Shown here one piece after another: positions 28,014 through 53,358 of a stretch of 64,000 nt of DNA. Origin of the DNA: a virus. The DNA lies in IMG/VR virus record IMGVR_UViG_3300042890_004841, positions 1 to 64,000 of that record; one strand, given 5' to 3'. Position 1 is the first letter of the stretch; each line of letters begins with the position of its first letter. The translations under genes were made by a program, and so were the position numbers. The notes beneath the pieces were generated by a model, which was given only the letters and a program-made list of their open reading frames with translations, had not been told where the DNA came from and did not search any database.

Positions 28014-28014
28014 A

Positions 28015-28842: not shown

Positions 28843-28877
28843 CTATGTACCAAATTAATAAATCAGGTATTACTTAT

Positions 28878-29105: not shown

Positions 29106-29321
29106 ATGGGTTACAAAATTCTTCCCGCAATTCCCGCTCGTTACACTAAACTAAAAGGTCTTGAAGGACCTTTTCTTTACGAAACAGGTAAAGTGTTGTA
29201 TTATGATCCTATTGTAGGTCAATACTATGATCGTGATACAGACTTGTACCTTGAACAAGAAGAAGCTGACTTTCACGTTTTTTATGGTGTACGTAATACT
29301 TTGTCTATATTGAGCGCATAA
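29106..29321 (+). CDS. Hypothetical protein (71 aa)
   Basis: MGYKILPAIPARYTKLKGLE, followed by LYYDPIVGQYYDRDTDLYL, a beta-turn-rich piece. A perfect AGGAGG site lies 4 nt before the ATG, implying strong translation. Stop shares one base with the next ATG. It may be a partner of the large exported-type protein downstream. Confidence 0.65.
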   Translation: MGYKILPAIPARYTKLKGLEGPFLYETGKVLYYDPIVGQYYDRDTDLYLEQEEADFHVFYGVRNTLSILSA

Positions 29322-36665: not shown

Positions 36666-37169
36666 GTGAAAGAAAAATTTATAAAACTTTATGCAGATAT
36701 TGCTAAACGAGTATCGGAATTAAGTTATGCTGTACGGTTGAAAGTTGGTGCGATTATTGTTAAAGATGATCGTATCATCAGTATTGGTTATAATGGTATG
36801 CCTAGTGGATGGGACAATGGCTGTGAATATACTGAATTTATGCCTATCAACGACCCTACAGCAAAATTTCAAGACTATCCTTTTACAGGTAATTTTTGGA
36901 TTAATGGTCACAGCGTAGAAAGAAGATACAGACTAAAAACCAAACCTGAAGTATTGCATGCTGAATCAAATGCTTTGGCAAAATTAGCTAAGTCTAACGA
37001 GAGTGGGGATGGTGCTGATTTGTTTATTACACACAGTCCTTGTATCGATTGCGCTAAACTAATTTACCAATCAGGTATTCGTCGTGTGTATTTTGGTACA
37101 CACTATAGGGACGATGCAGGGATAAAATTTCTTGAAAAAAGTGGAGTAGAAGTTATTTCACATGGATAA
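36666..37169 (+). CDS. Deoxycytidylate (dCMP) deaminase
   Basis: 168 residues from a GTG. Zinc site: H98-A-E100 (LHAESNA) with C126 and C129 (SPCIDC). Substrate region like T4 gp cd, including YNGMPSGWDNGCE. It turns dCMP to dUMP and feeds dTTP synthesis for phage DNA. A GGGA lies about 6 nt before the GTG; no better ATG is nearby. Its end overlaps the first gene of the LRW array. Confidence 0.9.
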   Translation: MKEKFIKLYADIAKRVSELSYAVRLKVGAIIVKDDRIISIGYNGMPSGWDNGCEYTEFMPINDPTAKFQDYPFTGNFWINGHSVERRYRLKTKPEVLHAESNALAKLAKSNESGDGADLFITHSPCIDCAKLIYQSGIRRVYFGTHYRDDAGIKFLEKSGVEVISHG

Positions 37170-37353
37170 TCATACCTTAACAGTTACCATACCATTTGGT
37201 AAGTTAGGAGATATTTTTGATTGGTGTCAACATAATTGCACAGGCGAATGGCATTTCGCTAATTTAGAAGTAGGTGGACAAGATGCAGGACATTATGTTG
37301 TAAGTTTTAGTAATGAAAATGATTGTAATTTTTTCGCAATGAGATGGATGTAG
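37162..37353 (+). CDS. LRW-array gene 1 (63 aa)
   Basis: First gene of the tandem LRW family. Layout: strand TLTVTIPF, helix KLGDIFDWCQHNCTGEW, strand HYVVSFSNEN, final helix NDCNFFAMRWM. The W-C in the first helix and the F-x-N/E-x-x-D-x-x-x-F-x-x-R-W ending are the family signature. Function unknown. Its ATG lies inside the dCMP deaminase stop region, and its end overlaps the next gene by 10 bases. Confidence 0.72.
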   Translation: MDNHTLTVTIPFGKLGDIFDWCQHNCTGEWHFANLEVGGQDAGHYVVSFSNENDCNFFAMRWM

Positions 37354-37568
37354 GTCAACGTTTTTTAATTTTTTCAGGGGTGCCTAATATTTCTACTCAT
37401 GAACACTGTTGTTTTATCATAGATTTTACATGGTGGGTAGAAAATGATGCAGAAATTACAAGTTGGTTATTAAAAAATATTGGGGTAAATAATTTTAAAT
37501 TAGATGGTATTGTTCTACAATTTACCACAGCAGAACTACAATCATTTTTTTTGCTTACTTGGAGTTAA
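37344..37568 (+). CDS. LRW-array gene 2 (74 aa)
   Basis: Starts in the overlap with gene 1. Strand RFLIFSG, insertion, strand CCFIIDFTWW, helix ITSWLLKNIG, strand IVLQFTTAE, end SFFLLTWS. The DNA for its ending supplies a TGGAG site 6 nt before the next ATG. Family signature retained but Leu-Thr replaces Leu-Arg. Confidence 0.68.
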   Translation: MDVGQRFLIFSGVPNISTHEHCCFIIDFTWWVENDAEITSWLLKNIGVNNFKLDGIVLQFTTAELQSFFLLTWS

Positions 37569-37570
37569 TT

Positions 37571-37789
37571 ATGATTATTATTGTTGATTCTTTTGATTGC
37601 CAACAAGCAATGAACGATTTAGGTATTGACCAAGATAGCAATGAATTTGTACCTGCTTTTGAAAAAAGACATGATTGTTTTGTACACCATTACGTGTTAT
37701 CTTGCGGAATTAAACAATTTAATTGTATTGCGTATATCGAGTTTCATAATGAAGCAAGTTATAACTTATTTGCGTTGAAATACATGTAG
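37571..37789 (+). CDS. LRW-array gene 3 (72 aa)
   Basis: ATG at 37571, with GGAG of the upstream TWS-stop codons as its site. MIIIVDSFDCQQAMNDLG, then a strand pair and end NLFALKYM. A divergent family member. Followed by a promoter, so genes 1-3 form a first sub-operon behind dCMP deaminase. Confidence 0.65.
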   Translation: MIIIVDSFDCQQAMNDLGIDQDSNEFVPAFEKRHDCFVHHYVLSCGIKQFNCIAYIEFHNEASYNLFALKYM

Positions 37790-37797
37790 CGAAATAC

Positions 37798-37826
37798 TTG
37801 ACAACAATTTTTTAATATTTTATAAT
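37798..37826 (+). promoter_or_regulatory. Sigma70-type promoter at head of main LRW array
   Basis: TTGACA (37798-37803), 17-nt A/T spacer, TATAAT (37821-37826). The last promoter I can find before 45.5 kb, so it may drive a transcript of over 7 kb. Confidence 0.82.
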
Positions 37827-37838
37827 AGGAATGAATAA

Positions 37839-37988
37839 ATGTACAAATATCAACTTTGGGTACGACTTAACGACTATCAAACCGCTAACACCATCATTTG
37901 GGCAAATAATGACTATGAAGCTAAAATGCTTGGTGAGGCACAATATGGAGTAGGTAATGTCCTCAACTACACAAGAATTGATGATTGA
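37839..37988 (+). CDS. Conserved small phage protein (49 aa)
   Basis: MYKYQLWVRLNDYQTANTII, then WANNDYEAKMLGEAQYG and an end NVLNYTRIDD. I recall this exact type of short protein in other phages. AGG lies upstream of the ATG. Its last 32 bases overlap the next gene in another frame. It is not an LRW-family member but leads the operon. Confidence 0.72.
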   Translation: MYKYQLWVRLNDYQTANTIIWANNDYEAKMLGEAQYGVGNVLNYTRIDD

Positions 37989-38181
37989 AACGAAAGAGGT
38001 TGATAAAGAAGGTTGCTACGATTGGGTAGAAACTTATGCATTATTGCCTAAATTTACTATTTCAGGTAAAATGCTATGGTTCAAGAAATGCTACAAACGT
38101 AGAGTGCGTATTATTTGGAAACAACCATATGATGTTGATTACGTAATGGAGTATGCTACTGCCTTAGATTTATTGAAGTAA
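37957..38181 (+). CDS. Hypothetical protein (74 aa)
   Basis: MSSTTQELMIETKEVDKEGC, then strands FTISGKMLWFKKCYKRRVRII. GGAG 6 nt before the ATG, inside the coding sequence of the 49-residue protein. It has no LRW ending. Not recognised. Confidence 0.62.
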   Translation: MSSTTQELMIETKEVDKEGCYDWVETYALLPKFTISGKMLWFKKCYKRRVRIIWKQPYDVDYVMEYATALDLLK

Positions 38182-38183
38182 CC

Positions 38184-38411
38184 ATGAATGTTAAGCGATA
38201 TAGTGCGCATACATGGGGATGGGATACTAATTGTAATGGGTGGTATCTAGCATATGTCAATAGTGGTAATTATGAAGAAGTCCTTGATTGGTTATACGAT
38301 AATGTAGAAGGGTGTGAAAAACATTGTCGTTGGCGTTTTTTCCATGCGCATACTGAGGTGAAATTTAGACATGAACGTGATTTTGTATGGTTTAATTTAG
38401 TGTGGCGATAA
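38184..38411 (+). CDS. LRW-array gene 4 (75 aa)
   Basis: Strand WYLAYVN, helix YEEVLDWLYDNVEGCEKH, strand EVKFRHER, end DFVWFNLVWR. Clear family layout. Starts 2 bases after the upstream stop; its stop shares a base with the next start (ATAATG). Confidence 0.7.
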   Translation: MNVKRYSAHTWGWDTNCNGWYLAYVNSGNYEEVLDWLYDNVEGCEKHCRWRFFHAHTEVKFRHERDFVWFNLVWR

Positions 38412-38638
38412 TGGCATATTTTGTTCAAAATAATGAATTGAAACATGTTTTATATAATTTGTGGGAAGGTTCAGGACAAAAATTTGTACCAAAATTGGGT
38501 ATTGATTCTAAGATTCAAGCTTGTGATTGGTTTTATGATAATTATGGTATCCGCCTTGTTTATAATGGACATGCGTTAAAAGGTTGGATTTTTAAAAGTG
38601 AAGAACATTATACTTGGTTTATGTTAAATTATTCTTAA
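38411..38638 (+). CDS. LRW-array gene 5 (75 aa)
   Basis: ATG at 38411 overlaps the upstream TAA (TAATG). The family helix is KIQACDWFYDNYG, followed by strands and the end EEHYTWFMLNYS. The final RW is replaced by NY, so it is a diverged member. Confidence 0.66.
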   Translation: MAYFVQNNELKHVLYNLWEGSGQKFVPKLGIDSKIQACDWFYDNYGIRLVYNGHALKGWIFKSEEHYTWFMLNYS

Positions 38639-38639
38639 T

Positions 38640-38927
38640 ATGCTATTAACTAGAACAGAATTTATAAAATATGCTAATAAACATTGGCCTAATATAGGTA
38701 CGGATAATACTAGCCCATTATGGATACCTGAAGTAAGTTTAGGTGATCAATGTCAATATTTTTTGTTTATTCCTGTGATGCAACGATGGAACAAAAGTGA
38801 TTTTTGGGAATGGTCAGATAAATTATTGATTGGGAAAACACGATGTTTCATGCGTGGTAATGATGGTGAAATATGGGGATTTACCAATGAAGATGATATT
38901 AATATGTTTTTGCTGAGGTGGTCATGA
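38640..38927 (+). CDS. LRW-array gene 6 (95 aa)
   Basis: Longer N-terminal part with SPLWIPEVSLGDQCQYFLFI, then helix KSDFWEWSDKLLIG, strand EIWGFTNED, end INMFLLRWS. Its last codons are CTGAGGTGGTCATGA (38913-38927), which hold the site and start of the next gene. The first of the perfect junctions. Confidence 0.7.
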   Translation: MLLTRTEFIKYANKHWPNIGTDNTSPLWIPEVSLGDQCQYFLFIPVMQRWNKSDFWEWSDKLLIGKTRCFMRGNDGEIWGFTNEDDINMFLLRWS

Positions 38928-39190
38928 AAGATTGTATCCAAGATTTTATTGCAGCTTGGAAGCATTATGATGGGCTTTCTGCTCCAACTATTACAAGTTG
39001 GAGCAATAGGTTAGCTGAGGGTGGCTATTATAGTGTTACATTGACAGGTCAAAGTCTTTTAGTTGATTGGCAGGATGTTCATCGATGGTGTGAGCATGAG
39101 TTTGGCGAAAGACACTATACTTGGACTGGTAACGTATTTTGGTTCGAAAATGAATGTGATGCTAATTGGTTTGCCCTGAGGTGGTCATGA
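38924..39190 (+). CDS. LRW-array gene 7 (88 aa)
   Basis: ATG at 38924 is inside the upstream TGA (ATGA) with GAGGTGG 3 nt before it. Helix VHRWCEHEFGERH, strand NVFWFENE, end CDANWFALRWS. One of the best examples of the family. Ends with a perfect junction (39176-39190). Confidence 0.75.
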   Translation: MKDCIQDFIAAWKHYDGLSAPTITSWSNRLAEGGYYSVTLTGQSLLVDWQDVHRWCEHEFGERHYTWTGNVFWFENECDANWFALRWS

Positions 39191-39396
39191 GTAAAAGAGA
39201 TTGGTGTAATATTCCAGTAAAGGTTCCATATCGTAGCACAGGTCAATGGCGTGATCTGCGTATATGGCTGATGGAAAATGTCAACGACATGGACTATGAT
39301 GCTGCTGGTGTAGATTTACAGGATTATGATAATAGAGTATTTTATTTTGCCAGATCAAAGGATGCCATGTGGTTTGCCTTGAGGTGGAGTTCATGA
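39187..39396 (+). CDS. LRW-array gene 8 (69 aa)
   Basis: MSKRDWCNIPVKVPY, helix DLRIWLMENVND, strand RVFYFARS, end KDAMWFALRWSS. The ending has an extra Ser; GAGGTGG lies 6 nt before the next ATG (AGTTCATGA). Confidence 0.73.
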   Translation: MSKRDWCNIPVKVPYRSTGQWRDLRIWLMENVNDMDYDAAGVDLQDYDNRVFYFARSKDAMWFALRWSS

Positions 39397-39818
39397 TAAA
39401 ATGGTTTAAACAACAGTATAAAGCGTGGAAAGATCGACGTTTCCTAAAACGTCACGGTTGTAGAGATTGGGAAGAATACCACTATTGTTACGATCCAGAC
39501 CGAAACATTCGTTGTACTAGGGTAAAAGACTACTATCATGGTTATCCTTATTGGCATGTGTTTGAAAGATCTAATCACTATTGTTATAAGTTACTCTATG
39601 ATTACGGTCCGGGCGGACATCGTTGCGGCTATCACGATATAATCGATTGGTGCGAGGAAAATGCCAAAGGTAAACACAGAACAGATTTCTTGCGTGTGAT
39701 AAAATATCCTAGCACAGGTAACGAATGGGAAATAAACGAATTTGTCGGAGGTGATCATATCTTTGTGGCGTTCAAAGAAGAACGAGATTATTTAATGTTT
39801 GTGTTGAGGTGGTCATGA
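39393..39818 (+). CDS. LRW-array gene 9, long form with extra N-terminal domain (141 aa)
   Basis: The N-terminal half (MIKWFKQQYKAWKDRRFLKR, then WEEYHYCYDPD and VKDYYHGYPYWHVFE) is a distinct Tyr/Trp-rich domain. The C-terminal half is a full family unit: helix YHDIIDWCEENAKGK, strand HIFVAFKEE, end RDYLMFVLRWS. This long architecture resembles conserved proteins in T4-like aquatic phages and could be the ancestral form from which shorter units arose. Ends with a perfect junction (39804-39818). Confidence 0.73.
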   Translation: MIKWFKQQYKAWKDRRFLKRHGCRDWEEYHYCYDPDRNIRCTRVKDYYHGYPYWHVFERSNHYCYKLLYDYGPGGHRCGYHDIIDWCEENAKGKHRTDFLRVIKYPSTGNEWEINEFVGGDHIFVAFKEERDYLMFVLRWS

Positions 39819-40072
39819 CATATGATCTTGTGATCAGTCAAGAAGGGCCAGACGCTCATCCTTTATACAGTGCCGTTAAGCACAGCATTGAATGGATAGG
39901 AAAAAAGCATCAAGTCAATAGTCCTATGGATTTGAAATATTTGACTGAAGAAGAATTTGATATTAGAATTGAAGCAGTGGGATATCTAACTAATACATCA
40001 GGTAATTATAGATATAGGGTAAGTTTCCGTGATGAACGACATTATACTTGGTTTATATTGAGGTGGTCATGA
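39815..40072 (+). CDS. LRW-array gene 10 (85 aa)
   Basis: MTYDLVISQEGPDAHPLY, helix VKHSIEWIGKKHQ, strands, end RHYTWFILRWS. Start in the junction ATGA. Its own last 15 bases are TTGAGGTGGTCATGA. Confidence 0.72.
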   Translation: MTYDLVISQEGPDAHPLYSAVKHSIEWIGKKHQVNSPMDLKYLTEEEFDIRIEAVGYLTNTSGNYRYRVSFRDERHYTWFILRWS

Positions 40073-40296
40073 TTGGTTTTTATTTAGAAAATTTTCTAAT
40101 AAATTGTCCCATATATTGGCAAAACTTTGTAAAGGCCAATCAGGATAATCCTGATCATGATACAGCATTAAGAATACTTAATAGAAAACTTAAGCCTTTT
40201 AAAGCAAGATATGTTCCCGCAAACTTTTGTGACCCCGATAAAGTTGTATTTGAAGATGAGCATAGCTTAAATTGGTTTATATTGAGGTGGTCATAA
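40069..40296 (+). CDS. LRW-array gene 11 (75 aa)
   Basis: MIGFYLENFLINCPIYW, helix DTALRILNRKLKPF, strand KVVFEDEH, end SLNWFILRWS. The junction to the next gene is a variant: TTGAGGTGGTCATAATG, so the stop is TAA and the next ATG overlaps it by one base. Confidence 0.72.
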   Translation: MIGFYLENFLINCPIYWQNFVKANQDNPDHDTALRILNRKLKPFKARYVPANFCDPDKVVFEDEHSLNWFILRWS

Positions 40297-40487
40297 TGGG
40301 GATGGGGTATCCTGTAACTGTTGCATGTAGTAATATCATGGAAGTATCTGAACGACTAGAATGGGCAGAAAAACATGGTATAAAACTACTGAATCGCACT
40401 TGGGTAGTTATCAATGAACGACAACATGTATCATTCTTTTTTGAAAAAGAAAAGGATGCTACAATTTTTGCACTGAGGTGGTCATGA
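40296..40487 (+). CDS. LRW-array gene 12 (63 aa)
   Basis: MGMGYPVTVACSN, helix VSERLEWAEKHGI, strand VSFFFEKE, end KDATIFALRWS. ATG 40302 (MGYPV) is an alternative start. Perfect junction at the end (40473-40487). Confidence 0.72.
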   Translation: MGMGYPVTVACSNIMEVSERLEWAEKHGIKLLNRTWVVINERQHVSFFFEKEKDATIFALRWS

Positions 40488-40696
40488 CCAAATTGCCCGA
40501 CTACCCTTATCTTCAAAATATCGTATCTTATTATCGTAAGATGACCGATAACTCGAATGGACCTTTATATCATGATGATTACATTACCTATCTAAAATCA
40601 TTTGGATTTCGAGTTCCAATAGAATTTGGTACTCTTGAATTTCCTGATGATTTTTCAGAAAAGGATTTAATGATGTTCATATTGAGGTGGTCATGA
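40484..40696 (+). CDS. LRW-array gene 13 (70 aa)
   Basis: MTKLPDYPYLQNIVSYYRK, helix YHDDYITYLKSFG, strand LEFPDDFS, end EKDLMMFILRWS. Its last 15 bases are TTGAGGTGGTCATGA (40682-40696), but the ATG there opens only a 6-codon frame before gene 14. Confidence 0.7.
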   Translation: MTKLPDYPYLQNIVSYYRKMTDNSNGPLYHDDYITYLKSFGFRVPIEFGTLEFPDDFSEKDLMMFILRWS

Positions 40697-40713
40697 GCAA
40701 AGTGTTTGCATGA
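40693..40713 (+). CDS. Six-codon leader ORF between array genes 13 and 14
   Basis: The junction ATG (40693) opens MSKVFA and then stops at TGA (40711-40713), overlapping the ATGATG start of gene 14. It probably keeps ribosomes coupled across a junction that lost its original gene start. It may be a remnant. Confidence 0.45.
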   Translation: MSKVFA

Positions 40714-40919
40714 TGAGACCACAAGATTTTGAACATCGTATAGAAATTGAACCTATATTGACTAAAAGTCATGAAGATGCTATACATGAATGGTGTAGGC
40801 GACATTTAGGTAGATACGGTGAAACTTGGTATACCTATTACAGCCAACAAAGTCATAAAATCATAGTATGTTTTCAGCATAGCCAAGATGCTGTTTGGTT
40901 TACTTTGAGATGGGCATAA
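40710..40919 (+). CDS. LRW-array gene 14 (69 aa)
   Basis: MMRPQDFEHRIEIEPIL, helix HEDAIHEWCRRHLGRYG, strand IIVCFQHS, end QDAVWFTLRWA. Start at the ATGATGA overlap with a 6-codon leader. The ending DNA is the variant TTGAGATGGGCATAATG. Confidence 0.72.
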   Translation: MMRPQDFEHRIEIEPILTKSHEDAIHEWCRRHLGRYGETWYTYYSQQSHKIIVCFQHSQDAVWFTLRWA

Positions 40920-41116
40920 TGTATACTCTTAACTTAGCTGAATTACCCGCTACCAAGTCTGTAGAATTTTTAGTATGGGTTTTTACTAATCAAATTGGAA
41001 ATTATATGTCTCTGCTAGAATTAATAACCAAAGACATTAATTGGCATTATAAAACAAGTATTCCTTTTGAATGCTCTGAACAAGAAGCAATATTGGTAAT
41101 TTTGAGGTGGGCATGA
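40919..41116 (+). CDS. LRW-array gene 15 (65 aa)
   Basis: MYTLNLAELPATKSVEFLVW, strand SIPFECSEQ, end EAILVILRWA. The last bases TTGAGGTGGGCATGA (41102-41116) keep the overlap function while coding Ala instead of Ser. Confidence 0.7.
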   Translation: MYTLNLAELPATKSVEFLVWVFTNQIGNYMSLLELITKDINWHYKTSIPFECSEQEAILVILRWA

Positions 41117-41364
41117 AGCCAAGTGAATTACTGACCATAGCAGAAAAATATTGGCTTACAGACTATGATCATAAAAAGCCTCTATCACCAAATACTCCCT
41201 TTGTCACCGGTGTGGCCCGTACTGATGCTATATTACATGACATGCTGATTAAACATGGTGTAGAACTGATATTGAAACAGAGTGGACATAGAAATTGGCA
41301 ATTGGCTGATTACCGTGTAGTTGATGACAAAAAGTTTATGTGGTTCCTAATGAGGTGGTCATAA
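41113..41364 (+). CDS. LRW-array gene 16 (83 aa)
   Basis: MKPSELLTIAEKYWLTDYD, helix ILHDMLIKHGVELI, strand and end KKFMWFLMRWS. Methionine replaces Leu before RW; the DNA reads ATGAGGTGGTCATAATG, still holding GAGGTGG. Confidence 0.7.
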   Translation: MKPSELLTIAEKYWLTDYDHKKPLSPNTPFVTGVARTDAILHDMLIKHGVELILKQSGHRNWQLADYRVVDDKKFMWFLMRWS

Positions 41365-41621
41365 TGACATATATAGATAATCCTAACATTTGGTATAATC
41401 TACAAATACATTTTAAAAATAATATCATGCCCGTCTTGGAGAATGATGATCAAGTTTGGGCGACAGCATTTAGGCGTTGGCTAAAAGAACAAGGTGCTGA
41501 CATTGCGCAAGCACAGAACATACGCTACTTGCGTAATAGTTTACAAATAGCACCTCAATTTGATCAATTGGTATTTGAAAATGATAGAGATGCTACGATG
41601 TTTTTATTGAGGTGGTCGTGA
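41364..41621 (+). CDS. LRW-array gene 17 (85 aa)
   Basis: MTYIDNPNIWYNLQIHFKNN, helix WATAFRRWLKEQGADI, strand QLVFENDR, end DATMFLLRWS. A close paralogue of the gene at 43987 over its whole length. Junction is TTGAGGTGGTCGTGATGG, an unusual variant where TGATG is the overlap. Confidence 0.73.
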   Translation: MTYIDNPNIWYNLQIHFKNNIMPVLENDDQVWATAFRRWLKEQGADIAQAQNIRYLRNSLQIAPQFDQLVFENDRDATMFLLRWS

Positions 41622-41830
41622 TGGCTCTACATACAGTTGTTTATCATAGACTTGAACCTGGTATGTTGGCAGGACATATTCGCAGTCTATTAGACTATAA
41701 TGTAGATCGTTGGTTGGAAGAAAATTGTCAGGGACGCTATTATCACAATCCTGGTTGGACAGATACAAAGTATATTCAATTCGAAGATAGCAGAGATGCC
41801 ATGTGGTTTGCCTTGAGGTATGGACGATGA
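41621..41830 (+). CDS. LRW-array gene 18 (69 aa)
   Basis: MALHTVVYHRLEPGMLAGH, helix NVDRWLEENCQGRY, strand YIQFEDSR, end DAMWFALRYGR. The C-terminus has RYGR rather than RWS, and the junction DNA is TTGAGGTATGGACGATGA. Confidence 0.72.
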   Translation: MALHTVVYHRLEPGMLAGHIRSLLDYNVDRWLEENCQGRYYHNPGWTDTKYIQFEDSRDAMWFALRYGR

Positions 41831-42057
41831 ATAGATTGGTTTGTTTACCTGCTGATTGGGGGCCTGTGCAAAAAGCTGCTGTTTGGTTAAGGGAACATTT
41901 GGACATACCTGATTATGAAACAATAGAAAGTCAATTTGAAGAATATTTTAATTGTAAGGTTATAAGGGATCCACCACATGATGTAGTCTATGGTAAAATA
42001 TATGCTGTATTTGAGTGTGAGCAAGATGCTAATTGGTTTATATTGAGGTGGTCATGA
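41827..42057 (+). CDS. LRW-array gene 19 (76 aa)
   Basis: MNRLVCLPADWGPVQKAAVW, helix AAVWLREHLDIPD, strand IYAVFECEQ, end DANWFILRWS. Perfect junction at its end (42043-42057). Confidence 0.72.
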   Translation: MNRLVCLPADWGPVQKAAVWLREHLDIPDYETIESQFEEYFNCKVIRDPPHDVVYGKIYAVFECEQDANWFILRWS

Positions 42058-42398
42058 AAATACAGCGAATACAGAAATTTGAAGATGGTCAAAAGATATA
42101 TGTGTTAGGCTCGGTTACTACACTTTCATTTCGTCAATATATGGATCAATACTCAGATTCAACTGTATGGAGTAGAGAACATCAGGCACATCATGCTATT
42201 AAACGACTCATAAAACTAGAATACAGTGAATTATATCAATGGTTATGCAGTCAAGATTGTCAAACAACCAATTGGATTGATGATAGAATATTTTCACTAC
42301 CATATCAATTCAGTGCTCAAATCAATTTATTTGATTGGGGTATAGGGTTCAGGTCAAATGATCCCAAAGAAACTTTGTTTATATTGAAGTGGCAATGA
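42054..42398 (+). CDS. LRW-array gene 20, longer form (114 aa)
   Basis: Extra N-terminal part (MKIQRIQKFEDGQKIYVLGS, TVWSREHQAHHAIKRLIK), then helix YSELYQWLCSQD, strands, and the end DPKETLFILKWQ. Lys replaces Arg; the DNA TTGAAGTGGCAATGA has a weaker site for the next gene. Confidence 0.7.
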   Translation: MKIQRIQKFEDGQKIYVLGSVTTLSFRQYMDQYSDSTVWSREHQAHHAIKRLIKLEYSELYQWLCSQDCQTTNWIDDRIFSLPYQFSAQINLFDWGIGFRSNDPKETLFILKWQ

Positions 42399-42634
42399 AT
42401 TATAATAGTAAATTTGATCAATATCATATGAAAATTACTGATAATTATATTACGGTAAATCGTAATAAACTCGATATTGTTGAAGCTATAAAGTGGGTTA
42501 AAAAGAATTGCCCACACTATATAACAAATCAATATCACGGTAATTATCATGGCAATGATCTTATTGATTTCTTTTTTTTAGACAAGCCAAAAGCTAAAGA
42601 AGAGATGACAATGTTTATTTTAAAATGGGCATAA
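42395..42634 (+). CDS. LRW-array gene 21 (79 aa)
   Basis: MNYNSKFDQYHMKITDNY, helix IVEAIKWVKKNCP, strand LIDFFFLDK, end EEMTMFILKWA. Start in the ATGA overlap; ends with AAATGGGCATAATG. Confidence 0.7.
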   Translation: MNYNSKFDQYHMKITDNYITVNRNKLDIVEAIKWVKKNCPHYITNQYHGNYHGNDLIDFFFLDKPKAKEEMTMFILKWA

Positions 42635-42882
42635 TGATTAATTTTGATAGTCCATTTAAAAAAGAATGGGAAGAACAATTAAAATGGTTGGATGAAACTA
42701 TACAAAGAAATTATACCAATGATGGTAGACCATTCAATAAAAGTACAGTGGCTCAATTTTTAGAATGGCGCAGTATGGATAAAGAAACATGGAAGTTTAG
42801 AATACAAGGATTGCCTCCTACACTTATAGTTACTTTTAAAGACCCTGAACATGAATTCTTATATAATTTAAGATGGAGATAA
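42634..42882 (+). CDS. LRW-array gene 22 (82 aa)
   Basis: MINFDSPFKKEWEEQLKWLD, helix STVAQFLEWRSMD, strand LIVTFKDPE, end HEFLYNLRWR. The coding DNA for RWR (AGATGGAGATAA) supplies GGAG for the TTG start that follows. Confidence 0.7.
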   Translation: MINFDSPFKKEWEEQLKWLDETIQRNYTNDGRPFNKSTVAQFLEWRSMDKETWKFRIQGLPPTLIVTFKDPEHEFLYNLRWR

Positions 42883-42883
42883 A

Positions 42884-43105
42884 TTGGCTATTGATGTAAT
42901 CATTGAAGGAAAAGAGTTATCACAATATATTGACATTGTGCGTGAACTACGTGCCTCAGGATTAAATCAAGGAGAACATTTTGATTTTAAATACATTCCA
43001 TCAGTATATGATTACGAAAAATATAGAATTACTCCAAAAAAAGTTATCTTTACATTTTATGATGAACAATACTCTACATTATTTCGTTTAAAATATGAAT
43101 CCTAA
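42884..43105 (+). CDS. LRW-array gene 23, TTG start (73 aa)
   Basis: TTG at 42884 with GGAG 5 nt upstream; no in-frame ATG is near. MAIDVIIEGKELSQYIDIV, then VIFTFYDEQ and the end YSTLFRLKYES. A diverged member with KY for RW. Overlaps the next gene by 11 bases. Confidence 0.62.
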   Translation: MAIDVIIEGKELSQYIDIVRELRASGLNQGEHFDFKYIPSVYDYEKYRITPKKVIFTFYDEQYSTLFRLKYES

Positions 43106-43280
43106 ATATCCGTATATTGCATCTATTTGTCCTCCTGATGGTGGTAAACGTGGTTGGTATGATGTAATATCGTGGTGCCATGAAAAGATAGGTGCCACAC
43201 ATTCTCAATATGTAGGTGAAGGTGTTTTTGCATTTGAAAATGAAAGTGATTATATGATGTTTATATTGAGGTGGACATAG
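43095..43280 (+). CDS. LRW-array gene 24 (61 aa)
   Basis: MNPKYPYIASICPPDGGKR, helix YDVISWCHEKIGA, strand GVFAFENES, end DYMMFILRWT. Almost the minimal full family unit. Ends TTGAGGTGGACATAG, with the stop before the next start. Confidence 0.74.
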   Translation: MNPKYPYIASICPPDGGKRGWYDVISWCHEKIGATHSQYVGEGVFAFENESDYMMFILRWT

Positions 43281-43281
43281 A

Positions 43282-43521
43282 TTGAATACTAAGGAATGTC
43301 AATGTTTTGAATGTCTCAAACCAAATTTTACCAAGTTTGTCAGCACCTTTATCGTATGTGACACCTGTGGTAACAAACGTTGCCCACACGCTACTGATCA
43401 TAGATTAGGATGCACCAACAGCAATGACCCAGGACAACTTGGCAGCAGATACGGTGTCTACCCACACCCATCTATAGAGTTATTAGATTTTTTGGATGCT
43501 GCCAATGAAGATAAAGAATAA
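43282..43521 (+). CDS. Cys-rich zinc-binding phage protein within the array (79 aa)
   Basis: TTG start with GAGGTGG of the previous gene 8 nt upstream. Contains CQCFEC, CDTCGNKRCPHATDH and CTNSNDPGQLGS. The NKRCPxAxxHxxxCTxSNxPGQxGS pattern is common in phage proteins. Probably binds zinc. It is not an LRW member but uses the same junction signal, so foreign genes can sit in the array. Confidence 0.72.
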   Translation: MNTKECQCFECLKPNFTKFVSTFIVCDTCGNKRCPHATDHRLGCTNSNDPGQLGSRYGVYPHPSIELLDFLDAANEDKE

Positions 43522-43738
43522 TCATTTACCACGTAATGGAGAATATGAAATATTTACTACCCAAGGACGCACTTATTGTTTTGATGATCCATCGTTAGAA
43601 GTCATGCAAGCACCTAATGAAATGTTTGAATGGTTAAGAAATATGCCAAGAGAACTATGTAGACCACTAGATCATACTAATGTTGCATTTTATCTAACTC
43701 CTGAAATGTATACCTTGTGGAAAATTACTTGGTTATGA
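43505..43738 (+). CDS. LRW-array gene 25 (77 aa)
   Basis: MKIKNNHLPRNGEYEIFTTQ; ATG 43496 is an alternative start. Helix NEMFEWLRNMPREL, strand VAFYLTPE, end MYTLWKITWL. Diverged ending. Overlaps the zinc protein by 17 bases. Confidence 0.62.
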   Translation: MKIKNNHLPRNGEYEIFTTQGRTYCFDDPSLEVMQAPNEMFEWLRNMPRELCRPLDHTNVAFYLTPEMYTLWKITWL

Positions 43739-43742
43739 TATA

Positions 43743-43952
43743 ATGATGAGAAGACTTAAAAAAGAAATTTGGCCTTATAAAATTACAGTGAATTATCCTG
43801 CTGATTCTCAAATTATTGATATTGAATTATGGTTAATTGAAAAGTTTGGTGAAAGAAGAAATAAGTGGAATGTAGTTTATGGTTTTTATAAGTCTGATTT
43901 TTACTTTAAAGAAGAATCTATGCTAACATTTTTTGCAATGCGATGGAACTAA
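43743..43952 (+). CDS. LRW-array gene 26 (69 aa)
   Basis: MMRRLKKEIWPYKITVNYP, helix IDIELWLIEKFGERR, strand DFYFKEES, end MLTFFAMRWN. Its ending codons include the ATG of the minigene that follows (overlap of 10 bases). Confidence 0.68.
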   Translation: MMRRLKKEIWPYKITVNYPADSQIIDIELWLIEKFGERRNKWNVVYGFYKSDFYFKEESMLTFFAMRWN

Positions 43953-43990
43953 CATATAGTCAAATAGTATCTTATTTGAGGTGGTCATGA
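43943..43990 (+). CDS. 15-codon minigene ending in LRWS
   Basis: MELTYSQIVSYLRWS, then TGA. The ATG lies inside gene 26 and the last 15 bases are the full junction TTGAGGTGGTCATGA. It seems to be a collapsed family member retaining only the start and the junction, so that ribosomes can reach gene 27. Confidence 0.55.
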   Translation: MELTYSQIVSYLRWS

Positions 43991-44244
43991 AATATATACA
44001 GGATTCTGACCTGTGGTATACACTACAGGTATATTTTAAAAATAATATCATGCCCAACTTGGTGAATGATGATAAAGTTTGGGCACATGAATTTAGACGA
44101 TGGCTTAAAGAACAAGGTGCTGAAATTGAGCATTTAATGAACCAACGATTAGTGCGTAATAGTTTAGGTATAGCACCCCACTATGATAAATTGGTCTTTG
44201 AGGATGAACAAAGGTTAGCTTGGTTTGTGTTGAGGTGGTCATAA
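43987..44244 (+). CDS. LRW-array gene 27 (85 aa)
   Basis: MKYIQDSDLWYTLQVYFKNN, helix WAHEFRRWLKEQGAEI, strand KLVFEDEQ, end RLAWFVLRWS. Close paralogue of gene 17 with the same length. Ends TTGAGGTGGTCATAA without an ATG at the expected spot. Confidence 0.73.
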   Translation: MKYIQDSDLWYTLQVYFKNNIMPNLVNDDKVWAHEFRRWLKEQGAEIEHLMNQRLVRNSLGIAPHYDKLVFEDEQRLAWFVLRWS

Positions 44245-44290
44245 AATTAAAAAATTAATTAAAATTAACGGTAAACACTATAATGACTAC

Positions 44291-44617
44291 ATGCCATGTG
44301 GCTTAAACATTATAGAAAAACTTTGGTGGTGGTTGGTTCCAGGTGTTCTTGTCAAAGTAAAATGGCCCAAGGGTATGATCACAGTAGATCATAATGACCC
44401 ACGTTGGTTTGATTGTGGTGGTGCAGTATGGGTAACCTACGAAAGCACTGATCCTAATGATCATTATCGCCCATGGATGGAAGCAAATATTGGTAAACAA
44501 AAGTGGGATTGGGATTGGGGATTTGTAGGCAATGATGTTTCAGATAACTGTTTAACCATTAAAGTTAGACAAAATAAGGCAGAGTATGCTACAATGATGA
44601 TTATGATGTGGGGATAG
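44291..44617 (+). CDS. LRW-array gene 28 (108 aa or longer)
   Basis: ATG 44291 gives MPCGLNIIEKLWWWLVPG. The same frame is open upstream to about 44234 and reads KKLIKINGKHYNDY, which looks like real protein; an ATT at 44246 lies 7 nt after the GAGGTGG of the upstream junction and could be a rare start. Contains DPNDHYRPWMEANIGKQKWD; ends EYATMMIMMWG, a worn family ending. Confidence 0.6.
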   Translation: MPCGLNIIEKLWWWLVPGVLVKVKWPKGMITVDHNDPRWFDCGGAVWVTYESTDPNDHYRPWMEANIGKQKWDWDWGFVGNDVSDNCLTIKVRQNKAEYATMMIMMWG

Positions 44618-44618
44618 T

Positions 44619-44993
44619 ATGCGAATAAAACCTTTTCAATCACGATATGCAGTAACTTGGGATGAATATCCTACAGGTATTTCCAACCCTAATGGTAAAG
44701 TGAAGATGGTAAATTGGTGTATCAAAAACTTAAAATTAGATTATATTACTTTGGGGTTTTACGCATATGACCCAAATGGGTTTTACGAACATAATCCACC
44801 AAATGCTGTAAATTCTTGGATGTTAATTAATTTATCAAATGATATTTTGATAACAACAGAAGACGATGTTCATTTAAAATTATTAGACCATGGATCACTA
44901 AAAGCAATCATACTTGATGATTACAGCAAAGCATGCGAATTAGCAGATTATGTTGATCAAATTCATACATTTAATATAATTAAAAGATACTGA
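44619..44993 (+). CDS. Array-associated protein, diverged (124 aa)
   Basis: MRIKPFQSRYAVTWDEYP, helix KVKMVNWCIKNLKL that fits the family, strands with WMLINLSND and then DDVHLKLLDHG where the family ending would be, followed by a further ~30 residues. Perhaps a member with a C-terminal extension, so the LRW end was lost. Confidence 0.6.
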   Translation: MRIKPFQSRYAVTWDEYPTGISNPNGKVKMVNWCIKNLKLDYITLGFYAYDPNGFYEHNPPNAVNSWMLINLSNDILITTEDDVHLKLLDHGSLKAIILDDYSKACELADYVDQIHTFNIIKRY

Positions 44994-44994
44994 C

Positions 44995-45186
44995 ATGAGA
45001 ACCGCACTTTTTCAGCGTGAATTCACCGTAAAGGAGGTAGGTCCTATTAGTGATTTTTTAAAACAATGTAGGAAAATGATGGGACAACCTTCACCTCAAA
45101 CATGGGTGTTTCATGGAAATTATCATAAAATTGTTTTATATATTTATGACGATAAGTATGCCACATGGTTTAGTTTAAGGTATTGA
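44995..45186 (+). CDS. LRW-array gene 29 (63 aa)
   Basis: MRTALFQREFTVKEVG, helix ISDFLKQCRKMMGQ, strand IVLYIYDDK, end YATWFSLRY. Last clear family member. Short N-terminus and the full layout. 1 base after the upstream stop. Confidence 0.68.
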   Translation: MRTALFQREFTVKEVGPISDFLKQCRKMMGQPSPQTWVFHGNYHKIVLYIYDDKYATWFSLRY

Positions 45187-46131: not shown

Positions 46132-46818
46132 ATGTTTTCACAATCAATTACATACCCAACAGCTAGTGAAATTAATTCAGCAATGGCAGGTGTGTATAAA
46201 AATATGTCACTTGCTGTATTAGTTAGTATGCTTGTTTCATATTATGTAGGTACTACCCCTGCATTGCTTCAGTTCTTTTTTACAGGTTTTGTCAAGTGGA
46301 TTGTTATTTTTGCACCATTAGTTGCAGTGTTTGCTGTGACCTATGGATTATCACAAGTACAATCTAAAGAAGTTGCATTATTGATGCTATTAGGTTTTGC
46401 TGCACTAATGGGTTTAAGTTTTGCTACAATCTTTGCAGTATACCAAATGGGTAGTATCTTTACTGCATTTATGGGTGCAGCAGTTTTATTTGGAACGATG
46501 AGTTTTTATGGTTACTTTACTAAAAAGAATCTTGATAGTATTGGTAAGTTTCTGTTTGTTGGGCTTATTGCTATTGTTATCGCCTCTATTATTAATATCT
46601 TTATTGGTAGCAGTGTTGCTGCTATGGTTATTAGTGCACTTGCTATTATTATTTTTCTTGGTTTAACTGCGTATGACACACAGAAAATTCGTGAAATGAT
46701 TATGGAAGAAGGTGCAACTGCTAGAGTAGAATCATTAGGTGCGTTAACACTTTACCTTGATTTTATCAATATTTTCTTGAACTTATTACAGTTGTTTGGT
46801 TTGAAGAAAGACGATTAA
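46132..46818 (+). CDS. Bax inhibitor-1 (BI-1/YccA) family membrane protein
   Basis: 228 residues with six to seven hydrophobic helices. The BI-1 pattern ending AYDTQKIREM (about 182-191) and GALTLYLDFINIFLNLLQL (about 204-222) is clear. Bacterial members (YccA, YetJ) are pH-gated Ca2+ leak channels or FtsH protease inhibitors. As YccA inhibits FtsH, a phage copy could protect phage proteins or the membrane state. AAAAGGAG 6 nt upstream. Its 3' end overlaps a convergent gene by 53 bases. Confidence 0.87.
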   Translation: MFSQSITYPTASEINSAMAGVYKNMSLAVLVSMLVSYYVGTTPALLQFFFTGFVKWIVIFAPLVAVFAVTYGLSQVQSKEVALLMLLGFAALMGLSFATIFAVYQMGSIFTAFMGAAVLFGTMSFYGYFTKKNLDSIGKFLFVGLIAIVIASIINIFIGSSVAAMVISALAIIIFLGLTAYDTQKIREMIMEEGATARVESLGALTLYLDFINIFLNLLQLFGLKKDD

Positions 46819-47443
46819 CAAAGTCTAATAGCAGCATATGGTGCCTACCATGGTGCCAATGCTGCTTTATATATTTGTACTTATTGTACCAAAACTTCTC
46901 ACTTTCAGGGTGGCATCCAATAATACCTATGTTGTTTTGTATAATTGCCATAGGATCATTATTAGAATATCGTGCGATTACTTTAAACTTACGTTCATTA
47001 CCAATCAATGAACACCCATCATAAAAAAACATTTCTTCTTCATCATGCAACCATTGCACATTAGCAACTGTAGCATATGATCGTTTAATATCAGTGTCAG
47101 GTCGCTTAATATATTGCACAGCCTCTACACTTTTAAGTATGTTAAAGTAATAATGTGATGCCCAATATGCACCCATACAAATACCCAAGTAGTAACCACC
47201 ATTGGTTACAAAGTTTTGTATGGATTGTATAGTTTCTTGTGAGAAGAATTTGTAGAATTTGTCACTGCTACCAATGCCACCTGGGAAAGCTAGGATATCA
47301 GCTTTAGATAATACTTTGTTTATATTGTCTTGTTCAGACCAAATAGTTATTTTGTAGGATTGCTGCAAGGCATTGATCATACCATTGCAGCACCATATTG
47401 AGCATTCAGGATCGTGTTGAAATAATGCTATACTTTTTTTCAC
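46766..47443 (-). CDS. Class I glutamine-amidotransferase-like protein (BPL_N family)
   Basis: 225 residues. The nucleophile elbow is GICMGAYW with C89; PGGIGSS (54-60) forms the oxyanion part, and GCHPESEKFW follows the triad histidine position. This fits the BPL_N family (like the N-terminus of eukaryotic biotin protein ligase), which has no firm role. It is the last gene of the minus-strand phosphate-related block, overlapping the gene before it by 4 bases. Confidence 0.75.
   Translation of the reverse strand: MKKSIALFQHDPECSIWCCNGMINALQQSYKITIWSEQDNINKVLSKADILAFPGGIGSSDKFYKFFSQETIQSIQNFVTNGGYYLGICMGAYWASHYYFNILKSVEAVQYIKRPDTDIKRSYATVANVQWLHDEEEMFFYDGCSLIGNERKFKVIARYSNNDPMAIIQNNIGIIGCHPESEKFWYNKYKYIKQHWHHGRHHMLLLDFVNRLSSNQTTVISSRKY
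46830..46866 (+). other. Hairpin just after the BI-1 gene
   Basis: AGCAGCAT (46830-46837) pairs with ATGCTGCT (46859-46866), with an inner ATGGT/ACCAT stem. It lies inside the end of the convergent gene. It may end transcription of the BI-1 mRNA, though only TTATATATTTG follows. Confidence 0.35.
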
Positions 47444-47628
47444 ATTGGGTCAGCATCAGGAAAGTCATGACTTGAACCTGCTGATTGAACGTGCATATCA
47501 ACAAAATCGTATTGTGAAAGTGTATAAATTAGGCTTTTAACAGTTTCAAGTGTTTCAAGTTGGTCTATTGATTCACTGTTTAATTCAACCTTAATGTCTA
47601 AACCATTGATTGTCATTTCTAATTTCAT
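47440..47628 (-). CDS. Hypothetical protein (62 aa)
   Basis: MKLEMTINGLDIKVELNSES, helix IDQLETLETVKSLIYTLSQY. Strand-strand-helix layout, AAGGAT site upstream on the - strand. Part of the minus-strand operon between the zinc-ribbon gene and the amidotransferase-like gene. Not recognised. Confidence 0.62.
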   Translation of the reverse strand: MKLEMTINGLDIKVELNSESIDQLETLETVKSLIYTLSQYDFVDMHVQSAGSSHDFPDADPM

Positions 47629-47655
47629 GGTAAAATCCTTATAATATTCTAATAT

Positions 47656-47871
47656 TTATTCTAATTTACCACCACAGTGTGGGCATTTTTTAGTGTCATT
47701 AATATGTTCTTGTAAAACTTTTTCCCATTCTTTTATTTCACGTATAATACCTTTTAATGTTCTACGACAACGTATAGGTTTATCTTTTTCTAATTCACCC
47801 TTTAAACGTTTACGCAACATGTGAACTCGCTGTTCAAAAACCCCTAAAAATCCACCTGTTGAATCGCCCAT
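47656..47871 (-). CDS. Small basic zinc-ribbon-ended protein (71 aa)
   Basis: Helical and basic, with CPHCGG near the end; a single Cys pair, so zinc would need a partner or dimer. The upstream glycosyltransferase ends GAG GTA TAA, which acts as this gene's GAGG site directly before ATG. Not recognised. Confidence 0.62.
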   Translation of the reverse strand: MGDSTGGFLGVFEQRVHMLRKRLKGELEKDKPIRCRRTLKGIIREIKEWEKVLQEHINDTKKCPHCGGKLE

Positions 47872-48867
47872 TTATACCTCAGTTAAGTTATTTTTAAATA
47901 TATTCCAAGCTTCTTCCCAACTATAACTTAGGCTTTCAAGCTCTACATTTTGTCTATTTAATGTTAAACATTCTGTTATAGATAATTTTAAATTTTCTCG
48001 TAAGTATCCTGTAACACCATGTTTTACAACGTCTAGTGGTCCTTGACATGGATATGCTGCGACAGGTGTACCACATGCCATGGCTTCAATCATTACAATA
48101 CCAAATGTTTCCCAACGACTAGGAAATACAAATACATCAGCATTAGCGTAATATGTTGCTAAATCTGCCCCTGTTTTGAAACCTACAAATTCTACATCGG
48201 GATATTTTTGTTCTAATTCTGCACGATAGGGTCCATCTCCGACTAGTATTTTTTTTGCATGGAAATAGTTTAATGAACAAAAATCATCTAAATTTTTTTC
48301 TTTACTTATTCTACTTACACACAATAAATTAAGTTGATCATTTGTTTTTGTTCTTAAAGTTGATTTAAATATGGATCTATCAACTCCTCTAGTCCATGGT
48401 ATAATATCACTTTTTAGACCTTTTTCTTTAAGTTGTTTTACCATAGACTCTGTAGTAGTTAAAACTTTTCCTGTATGTTTATGAAACCATTTTATGTATT
48501 TCCAAGTAATTGATTCGGGTAGTCCTAAAAGAGTTTTAAGTCCTTCAGGAAATTTAGTATGATAAGCAGTATTGTACCTAAAATCATGTTTTGTAAGATA
48601 TGCTCTAGCCCACAGACCCACAGGACCCTCTGTTGCGATATGGATATGATTCGGATTGATCTCCTCAATCTTCTCGCCCATCTGCCTTGGTAAGGCAATC
48701 TTGACTTCGTTATATAGAGGGCAATCAATGTAGCTGAACTCATCGGGAGTAATATAAACAAAATGATAACCATCCCGAATCGCATACGTTTCAATATTTT
48801 TGTAAGTGGTAACAACCCCATTAATTTGATCATGTAAATTATCTGTTACTATTAGTATTTTTTTCAC
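47872..48867 (-). CDS. agt: GT4 glycosyltransferase, Agt-like (glycolipid synthesis)
   Basis: 331 residues from a GTG. N-terminal Rossmann half: KKILIVTDNLHDQINGVVTT, HIATEGPVGLWAR, YHTKFPEG. C-terminal half: SRISKEKNL, VGDGP (209-213) and the GT4 E-x7-E motif with E253 and E261 (WETFGIVMIEAMACGTPVA). The pattern agrees with the glycosyltransferases next to plcP in bacteria (Agt), which add a sugar to diacylglycerol under phosphate starvation; mannosyltransferases of the same clade look alike. It overlaps the small membrane gene that separates it from the PlcP-like gene. Confidence 0.82.
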   Translation of the reverse strand: MKKILIVTDNLHDQINGVVTTYKNIETYAIRDGYHFVYITPDEFSYIDCPLYNEVKIALPRQMGEKIEEINPNHIHIATEGPVGLWARAYLTKHDFRYNTAYHTKFPEGLKTLLGLPESITWKYIKWFHKHTGKVLTTTESMVKQLKEKGLKSDIIPWTRGVDRSIFKSTLRTKTNDQLNLLCVSRISKEKNLDDFCSLNYFHAKKILVGDGPYRAELEQKYPDVEFVGFKTGADLATYYANADVFVFPSRWETFGIVMIEAMACGTPVAAYPCQGPLDVVKHGVTGYLRENLKLSITECLTLNRQNVELESLSYSWEEAWNIFKNNLTEV

Positions 48868-49024
48868 ATTTTCCCTCTACTTTAAACCACGGAAATTTAA
48901 CCCAATGTGCCATTGTTTGTAATGCGTGTTCACAACTAGCTTGATCTTTAAATTGAAGCTGTATGCGGCCTGGGATATCGGTTGGATCATACGTATTAAC
49001 TACTATCAGAAATAACATCCACAT
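48839..49024 (-). CDS. Small membrane-anchored protein (61 aa) between plcP-like and agt-like genes
   Basis: ATG at 49024 with AAAGGA upstream; begins MWMLFLIVVNTYDPTDIPG, a short hydrophobic start that could be a signal. The rest contains QFKDQASCEHALQTMA and a second Cys (EGKCEK). Overlaps both neighbours by about 29 bases, so the three are translationally linked. Not recognised. Confidence 0.62.
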   Translation of the reverse strand: MWMLFLIVVNTYDPTDIPGRIQLQFKDQASCEHALQTMAHWVKFPWFKVEGKCEKNTNSNR

Positions 49025-49772
49025 AATCGTCCTTTGTATAGGGCCAATAAACAATTTCCCATTTTCCATCATCGTGTTCGACTAACGCAGTGCAACTTTC
49101 TACCCAATCACCATCGTTCATATATATTATTCCGTTAATGTCTTTGATTTCTGCGTGATGGATATGACCACAAATAACTCCATGATACCCACGCTTAGAA
49201 CAATAAATAGCCAAATTATTCTCAAATCTAAAGATAAAATCCACTGCTCGTTTGACTCTGCGTTTAAGATATTGACTAAGACTCCAATAACCGAACCCAA
49301 AACGGTGCCTAATACGATTAAATGTGGTATTAAGAGATAAAACAATGTCATAAGCTTTGTCACCTAAAAAACTTATCCATGGTGCTAATCTTGTTATGCC
49401 ATCAAATAAATCACCATGTATAACCAAGTATTTTTTACCATCAATACCAATATGTTCAATTTGATTACATATTTTTATTCTCCCAAAATTTAAACCATAT
49501 GGAATTAGTGGTCGTAAAAATTCATCATGATTACCTGATATGTAATATACTTGTGAACCACGCTTAGCATGGCCTAAAATTCTTCGAATGACATTAGTAT
49601 GTGATTGTTTCCAAAACCATTTATTTTGCTGTATTTTCCATCCATCTATAATGTCACCAATAAGATAGATATATTCAGCAGAATTATTTTTTAAAAAACT
49701 AGATAAATTGTCTGCTTTACAACCTTTGCTTCCTAAATGAGTATCACTAATAAATATAGATCTATATTTCAT
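48996..49772 (-). CDS. plcP: PlcP-like phospholipase C-type metallophosphoesterase
   Basis: 258 residues. Calcineurin-type blocks: D10-T-H12 (ISDTHLGS), G39-D40 (IGDIIDGW), G80-NHDE84, H119 (IHGD) and G202-H-I-H205. The long ending MNDGDWVESCTALVEHDDG matches LpxH-like proteins of the PlcP group. In bacteria PlcP removes the head group of phospholipids to leave diacylglycerol when phosphate is short. The Agt-like partner next to it and the pstS and phoX genes upstream make PlcP more likely than LpxH. No Shine-Dalgarno just before its ATG; a hairpin sits there. Confidence 0.83.
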   Translation of the reverse strand: MKYRSIFISDTHLGSKGCKADNLSSFLKNNSAEYIYLIGDIIDGWKIQQNKWFWKQSHTNVIRRILGHAKRGSQVYYISGNHDEFLRPLIPYGLNFGRIKICNQIEHIGIDGKKYLVIHGDLFDGITRLAPWISFLGDKAYDIVLSLNTTFNRIRHRFGFGYWSLSQYLKRRVKRAVDFIFRFENNLAIYCSKRGYHGVICGHIHHAEIKDINGIIYMNDGDWVESCTALVEHDDGKWEIVYWPYTKDDYVDVISDSS

Positions 49773-49777
49773 AAAAA

Positions 49778-49813
49778 AATAACTATAGAAAGTTTCGGCT
49801 CCCTATAGTTATT
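49778..49813 (-). terminator. Hairpin with T run between pstS and plcP
   Basis: AATAACTATAG (49778-49788) pairs exactly with CTATAGTTATT (49803-49813), 14-nt loop. On the - strand the stem is followed by TTTTTT and at once by the plcP ATG. It may end most pstS transcripts or regulate plcP; the loop holds GGGAG. Confidence 0.7.
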
Positions 49814-49848
49814 TACAAATTTAAACTGATTTATATATTACAGTTGTA

Positions 49849-50856: not shown

Positions 50857-50873
50857 TTATATTCCTTTTAAAA

Positions 50874-53078: not shown

Positions 53079-53128
53079 GTAATTTGGCTCCTTAATAAAA
53101 CATATTTACAAAAATAGTAGCATATAAT

Positions 53129-53146: not shown

Positions 53147-53165
53147 ATTTTAAAATTAGGATAGG

Positions 53166-53173: not shown

Positions 53174-53197
53174 TTATTATAATTAAAGAATTATAAT

Positions 53198-53347: not shown

Positions 53348-53358
53348 GATCCTTAAAC

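Follow-up and report, generated by a model that had tools for sequence, protein, structure and literature searches.

Evidence for a phage-specific family of small genes arranged as cassettes with a common C-terminal domain, translated ribosome-binding sites and exchangeable N-terminal modules

Results

An array of small genes sharing a C-terminal domain

This study concerns a tandem array of small genes in a 64,000-nucleotide stretch of viral DNA (positions 1 to 64,000 of the IMG/VR record IMGVR_UViG_3300042890_004841, hereafter the window). The array fills positions 37,162-45,186 with 33 consecutive plus-strand genes of 49-141 amino acids (aa), 29 of which end in a C-terminal signature whose tip reads F-x-L-R-W-S; the exceptions are g04, g05, g27 and g32, and g34, directly beyond the array, likewise lacks it (Table 1). 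An earlier note on this DNA had described about 29 such genes as one family, and this count held: leave-one-out profile hidden Markov models (HMMs) recover 24 of the 29 members at E<0.01, and a single shuffled control (that of g18, with five controls per gene) passed the same threshold. The assignments of g01-g33 in Table 1 are based on reading of the signature together with these models. No family members were found in the remaining 30 kb of the 94,048-base virus record, beyond the window.

The shared C-terminal domain (C-domain), of ~50 residues, is predicted by AlphaFold2 to fold as beta-alpha-beta-beta-alpha. The model of g09 is moderately confident (predicted local distance difference test, pLDDT, in blocks of 66-86) and that of the C-domain of a subfamily marked by the sequence KYKFSRAKWY highly confident (pLDDT 82-95), and the order of the C-terminal elements is alike in these two distant members. 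The C-domain has no match in Pfam, PHROGs, NCBIfam or PADLOC, no significant sequence-profile match in the PDB (best E=0.011, one chain) and no significant Foldseek match in the PDB (best E=0.099 and 0.93); its top Foldseek matches in BFVD are mainly uncharacterised phage proteins.

The signature tip is also a ribosome-binding site

While the F-x-L-R-W-S signature of the earlier note does mark a real C-terminal domain, its tip is in part something that the note overlooked, namely the Shine-Dalgarno sequence of the following gene. At gene borders the codons TTG AGG TGG TCA TGA contain GAGGTG, which serves the next gene as Shine-Dalgarno sequence, and an ATGA overlap that provides its start; in other words, TTGAGGTGGTCATGA in a gene end is the Shine-Dalgarno sequence plus start codon of its neighbour. 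Ten starts in the array overlap a stop as ATGA, and six others abut it as TAATG or TGATG. The 8-mer TGAGGTGG is present in 15 copies in the array and is absent from both strands of the rest of the window. Among members that encode Arg in L-R-W, the codon is AGG in 83% of cases with an abutting next gene versus 21% at intermediate spacing, against a background of 9.1% of Arg codons in long open reading frames (ORFs); these counts left out members matching the pattern that was used to retrieve relatives (see below), which favours AGG-ended cassettes. Since the R/K and W residues are kept even where no gene follows closely, constraints on protein and RNA coincide on the tip, whose codons also form the ribosome-binding site (RBS) for the gene that follows. 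The F-x-E-x-D-x-x-W-F part upstream of the tip is constrained at the protein level. Together with the substitution ratios given below, these codon signals suggest that the array genes are translated.

That the signature is an RBS translated by chance, in proteins that are otherwise unrelated, would be in line with how strongly the LRW codons are held to GAGGTGG, but this is extremely improbable. When the last five residues are cut from all sequences, leave-one-out HMMs still recover 16 of the 29 members, which largely refutes this reading, and the persistence of the W and R/K positions without a close downstream gene, the common predicted fold and the existence of diverged relatives without an RBS tip in phage Atu_ph07 (see below) all speak against it.

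Turnover of cassettes

Comparison with close relatives revealed cassette shuffling, which the earlier note had missed. Locus L047 matches the window at 98.6% identity along 3.9 kb. It is without g11 and g14-g15, the breaks falling on gene borders, and the place of g18-g21 is taken there by another gene together with a g19 relative. Locus L062 has orthologues of g09/g10, g18, g19, g21 and g22 at 77-84% nucleotide identity and in a different order, with similarity that begins 23-74 nucleotides (nt) before the start codon, within the 3' end of the preceding gene. Over all loci, at 85-95% identity, an orthologous upstream neighbour is shared by 29% of pairs of array genes, whereas other genes reach 70% (small ones 66%, large ones 77%). 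Within the window, the repeat that makes up the g19/g30 duplication starts inside the RBS, and an orphan RBS in the g29-g30 gap is likely a trace left by the loss or insertion of a cassette. DNA similar to g31 is found at L022, L054, L076 and L124. The repeated cassette end is probably a recombination site.

Distribution of the family

Loci of relatives were fetched from IMG/VR by a 24-nt DNA pattern over the cassette end. Among the matches listed, this pattern occurs in at least 120 stretches, on 109 contigs with 3 to 95 members each, and these stretches hold about 900 members, in >90% of which the domain lies at the very C terminus. Nearly all relatives are on metagenomic contigs. Of the two grounds on which the earlier note would have given up its reading, an HMM without members beyond this genome and unrelated predicted folds, neither applies. 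The long single-family run, for which the earlier note knew no described parallel, belongs to a family found only in phages but is not unique to the genome of the window. We came across no account of arrays of this kind in the literature searched. The richest contig among the matches listed, IMGVR_UViG_3300044613_002694 (G012, 94 kb), has at least 95 members, with 129 candidates, and carries loci L036, L044, L078 and L102. A T4-like gp23 is encoded on several relative contigs, including the 158-kb G010, one end of which is identical to the window across 3.8 kb. At another locus, L005:2370-3764 (minus strand) encodes a 464-aa protein that by reading resembles TROVE/Ro60-type RNA-binding proteins and is unusual in a phage.

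In 84,980 bacterial and archaeal genomes there is one cassette-end match, L206 (DLXM01000070.1), on a 6.4-kb contig in a Bacteroidetes metagenome-assembled genome; this contig is possibly a binned phage fragment and hence a weak host hint. Among cultured phages, the domain profile picks up about six proteins of Agrobacterium phage Atu_ph07 (MF403008), with E values from 1.6e-5 to 3e-3; where annotation was viewed, they are hypothetical proteins. Unlike the genes in the window, these relatives are dispersed and diverged, several have C-terminal tails, and they have neither an RBS tip nor an array. The profile found no relatives in T4, phiM12, P-SSM2, HTVC008M or BcepSauron, the last of which was a Foldseek hit that we rejected as it has no profile match at E<=0.1. 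Searches of 50,697 phage records by tblastn, with one member, a consensus or either of two concatenates as the query, returned no match; because a control query worked, tblastn is too weak for a family this diverse.

Exchangeable N-terminal modules and pieces of core phage proteins

The earlier note's observation that the genes are diverse outside their shared C terminus extends to relatives, in which related C-domains carry differing N-terminal modules (N-modules). Where some of these modules come from had gone unnoticed. When all the long ORFs of phage G001 (364 kb), 230 in number, were compared by blastp with 765 N-terminal parts (N-parts) of array proteins, there were 24 hits at E<0.01, versus 0 with shuffled targets, and their only sources were the major capsid protein gp23, a DnaB-type replicative helicase (Walker-A region) and the ribonucleotide reductase NrdA (active-site SNLCxEI). 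We rejected random capture of phage genes on these numbers, with just 3 of 230 long ORFs as sources. The Walker-A piece, which had weak phrog_2 hits that suggested a terminase, was reassigned to the DnaB-type helicase. Of the curated families, only that of the gp23 capsid has matches to three or more members, via their N-modules: Pfam Gp23 (PF07068) is matched by 16 of 110 non-redundant N-parts (best 1.4e-12; two for the next best family), and a gp23-only profile gave 19 hits at E<0.01 versus 1 for reversed targets. Among 30 hits of a gp23 N-arm profile, 13 were discounted as matches to the KYKFSRAKWY linker only.

The borrowed pieces are short. Those from gp23 span about 25-70 residues and map to three separate regions (E<0.05; profile columns 40-108, 161-233 and 339-356), and no full-length HK97-fold capsid protein is present among array members. 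The NrdA piece is only the SNLCxEI stretch (about 18 aa, 61-72% identity) and the helicase piece only the Walker-A stretch (22-34 aa), with no full catalytic domain in either case. NrdA and helicase P-loops are typical sites of inteins; no match to inteins or homing elements in Pfam or PHROGs was listed for 94 members and 110 N-parts. At three loci (L066:6482-7143, L045:1287-2071 and L120:2476-3119), adjacent array genes carry different gp23 segments, N-arm and central, as if one copy of a capsid gene had been cut into separate cassettes. The N-arm piece falls in the best-conserved region of gp23, which is where Gol is placed, an EF-Tu-binding, Lit-activating peptide whose 29 residues lie within the first quarter of the protein (PMC3014915).

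Identity between the borrowed gp23 pieces and the gp23s of the clade is mostly 30-58%, while the clade gp23s are 77-93% identical to G001 gp23. The pieces are therefore not recent copies, and we rejected recent self-capture of gp23. The borrowed N-parts are under purifying selection, with a ratio of nonsynonymous to synonymous substitution rates (dN/dS) of 0.20 in seven chimeric pairs; family-wide, dN/dS is 0.32 for N-parts and 0.22 for the C-domain (322 pairs).

These properties bear on several explanations of the arrays. Repeated cassette ends, breakpoints at gene borders, low synteny and the orphan RBS footprint could all arise if the 24-nt cassette end and T4-like recombination kept fusing coding pieces to the domain, in what would be a mostly non-adaptive birth of genes. 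Such a by-product of recombination is distinctly improbable: it is weakened by purifying selection on both parts of the proteins (dN/dS 0.2-0.3), three source proteins hardly amount to a random sample of 230, and arrays with tens of members are kept on many contigs. A role as virion or internal-head proteins, in which gp23-derived arms steer small proteins into the prohead for injection with DNA, is very improbable in view of the helicase and NrdA pieces held in the same slot, although gp23 N-arm pieces do sit at the N terminus and T4 packages small internal proteins.

Two further alternatives deserve more weight. The arrays might be an ordinary takeover arsenal of small inhibitors directed at unrelated host targets, as in T4 early regions, with borrowed pieces that are incidental rather than decoys. 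This would agree with small variable genes that are gained and lost between close relatives and with the lack of a recognisable origin for most N-modules, but it is rather unlikely, as it leaves unexplained why pieces of gp23, helicase and NrdA are used repeatedly and under selection. Alternatively, pieces of core proteins mounted on a common domain could interfere with rival phages or satellites by poisoning the assembly or activity of the corresponding proteins in co-infecting phages. Capsid, replicative helicase and NrdA are all oligomeric (the first two as hexamers), and the divergence of the pieces from the phages' own gp23 would be fitting. We consider this unlikely, since the pieces are short motifs instead of intact interfaces, and a closer match to rivals would be expected than to any known gp23, whereas identity to the closest gp23s from isolates is only about 40%; it nevertheless stays a main rival because the same facts fit.

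Table 1. Members of the array, related elements and neighbouring genes, in window positions
Feature	Positions	Strand	Remarks
g01	37162-37353	+	array member (DWCQHN...FFAMRWM)
g02	37344-37568	+	array member
g03	37571-37789	+	array member, divergent; leave-one-out E=0.011
g04	37839-37988	+	small gene without signature
g05	37981-38181	+	small gene without signature
g06	38184-38411	+	array member
g07	38411-38638	+	array member
g08	38640-38927	+	array member; LRWS codons are RBS of g09
g09	38924-39190	+	array member; structure predicted
g10	39187-39396	+	array member
g11	39393-39818	+	array member, long N-part; absent from close relative L047
g12	39815-40072	+	array member
g13	40069-40296	+	array member
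g14	40296-40487	+	array member; absent from L047
g15	40484-40696	+	array member; absent from L047
g16	40710-40919	+	array member
g17	40919-41116	+	array member
g18	41113-41364	+	array member, divergent; replaced by another gene in L047
g19	41364-41621	+	array member, paralogue of g30 (78% nt repeat)
g20	41621-41830	+	array member
g21	41827-42057	+	array member; orthologue in L062, different order
g22	42054-42398	+	array member
g23	42395-42634	+	array member
g24	42634-42882	+	array member
g25	42884-43105	+	array member
g26	43095-43280	+	array member (SWCHEK)
g27	43282-43521	+	cysteine-rich small gene without signature or family domain; possible zinc-binding protein
g28	43505-43738	+	array member, divergent; leave-one-out not significant
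g29	43746-43952	+	array member
Orphan cassette end	43973-43989	+	..TTTGAGGTGGTCATG, in g29-g30 gap, outside member genes
g30	43987-44244	+	array member; duplicate of g19 including upstream RBS
g31	44291-44617	+	array member, divergent; HMM E=2e-6 if included in the training set, not significant if left out
g32	44619-44993	+	small gene without signature
g33	44995-45186	+	array member (TWFSLRY)
TGAGGTGG, 15 copies	38914-44238	+	Shine-Dalgarno sites, 14 within member L-R-W codons and one orphan; at 38914, 39177, 39380, 39805, 40059, 40283, 40474, 40683, 41103, 41351, 41608, 42044, 43267, 43977, 44231
Outlying member	27934-28806	+	~230-aa N-part and family C-domain (28624-28803); held-out HMM E=2e-7, absent from training set
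Outlying small member	about 28845-29054	+	held-out HMM E=2e-5, absent from training set
DnaE-like DNA polymerase protein	2780-4453	-	557 aa (phrog_405, E=2e-64); phage otherwise T4-like-related
ClpX-like unfoldase	19076-20341	+	by reading
ClpP-like protease	25824-26423	+	matches head-maturation-protease PHROGs
ABC-ATPase and acetyltransferase-like protein	26416-27474	+	matches in 68 phage records
620-aa protein	29321-31183	+	no PHROG match; by reading glycosidase-like, then calcium-repeat-like region
Gene cluster	46766-55574	-	by reading glycosyltransferase, LpxH-like hydrolase, PstS, PhoX-like phosphatase, tryptophan-halogenase-like and 2-oxoglutarate-oxygenase genes

Discussion

One outcome of this study is architectural. 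It is very probable that the array belongs to a family of small genes specific to phages, whose cassettes lie close together in one orientation and combine a shared C-domain, an RBS in the last codons and exchangeable N-modules. To our best explanation as a whole, in which this architecture is combined with a mechanism, we give a probability of roughly 0.4.

With this architecture, a cassette can be gained, lost or moved and leave the translation of its neighbours undisturbed, because in most genes the last codons double as the next Shine-Dalgarno sequence; under this design, the exchange of genes would be neutral with respect to translation, which explains array turnover, and recombination probably takes place at the repeated cassette ends. 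The earlier note had surmised a set of inhibitors with a docking element. Along related lines, we tentatively propose that the C-domain serves as a common scaffold or docking part, that each N-module engages its own target in the host or its defences, that the borrowed pieces would act as decoys and occupy host immune sensors for conserved phage proteins, that other N-modules may inhibit other host or defence proteins, and that the whole array would be a rapidly rearranging arsenal for counter-defence and takeover. Taken further, the arrays would be a phage-encoded decoy library built by shuffling of cassettes at translated RBS repeats, in which a common scaffold presents selected capsid, replicative helicase and ribonucleotide reductase pieces and shuffling builds new specificities, and this more specific proposal appears somewhat unlikely. 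The decoy step is favoured because its three sources are among the phage proteins that have been mapped as triggers of bacterial defence or as sites of escape from it: the capsid for CapRel (PMC9712102) and Lit/Gol (PMC3014915), and, in work by Stokar-Avihail et al. as far as it is cited in PMC10684548, primase-helicase and ribonucleotide reductase.

Several points weigh against this proposal. No array protein in the window has a detectable borrowed piece, and the decoy idea therefore rests on relatives. Only some 5-9% of the N-parts in our set are recognisably borrowed, and the weaker central-gp23 and very short assignments come partly from iterated profiles. The pieces' low identity to the gp23 of the clade, the lack of a PADLOC match for the domain and dN/dS values far below 1, which are unlike a fast arms race, point the same way. 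A Gol-like decoy could also trigger Lit instead of blocking it.

These arrays matter because the family has hundreds of members in uncultured large phages, with at least 95 on one contig, and is absent from all family libraries searched. The selected pieces of capsid, helicase and ribonucleotide reductase point to molecular mimicry of proteins that are sensed by defences, and the members with borrowed pieces, for example L108:13318-13698 and L107:3200-3673, provide a concrete list for testing against such defences.

Comparison with known systems highlights similarities and differences. In about 16-25 relatives, the N-module shows homology to segments of the T4 gp23 major capsid protein (PF07068), including the Gol region. 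Unlike gp23, however, these are short pieces on an unrelated C-domain, in proteins that are not capsid proteins, and they are absent from the array of the window. Like the hypervariable regions and anti-defence islands of T4-like phages, the arrays consist of co-oriented, small, strain-variable genes that are gained and lost in large phages, but nearly all the genes of an array belong to one family, and the codons of their common C-domain form the next RBS. As regards integron-type gene cassettes, which are defined by attC sites and an integrase, the boundaries observed in the arrays are coding/RBS repeats. As for anti-defence genes of the anti-CRISPR kind, the array genes appear compatible with them, judging from small size and variability alone. 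Mosaicism in which phage proteins, ribonucleotide reductase among them, trade their N- and C-terminal parts has been described (PMC10684548). That mosaicism swaps domains of large proteins, whereas the arrays mount short catalytic or structural motifs on one small domain. Finally, the borrowed capsid region is of the kind that is sensed in capsid-triggered defence by CapRel (PMC9712102) and Lit/Gol (PMC3014915). These are host systems, and our searches found no published phage library assembled from borrowed trigger pieces.

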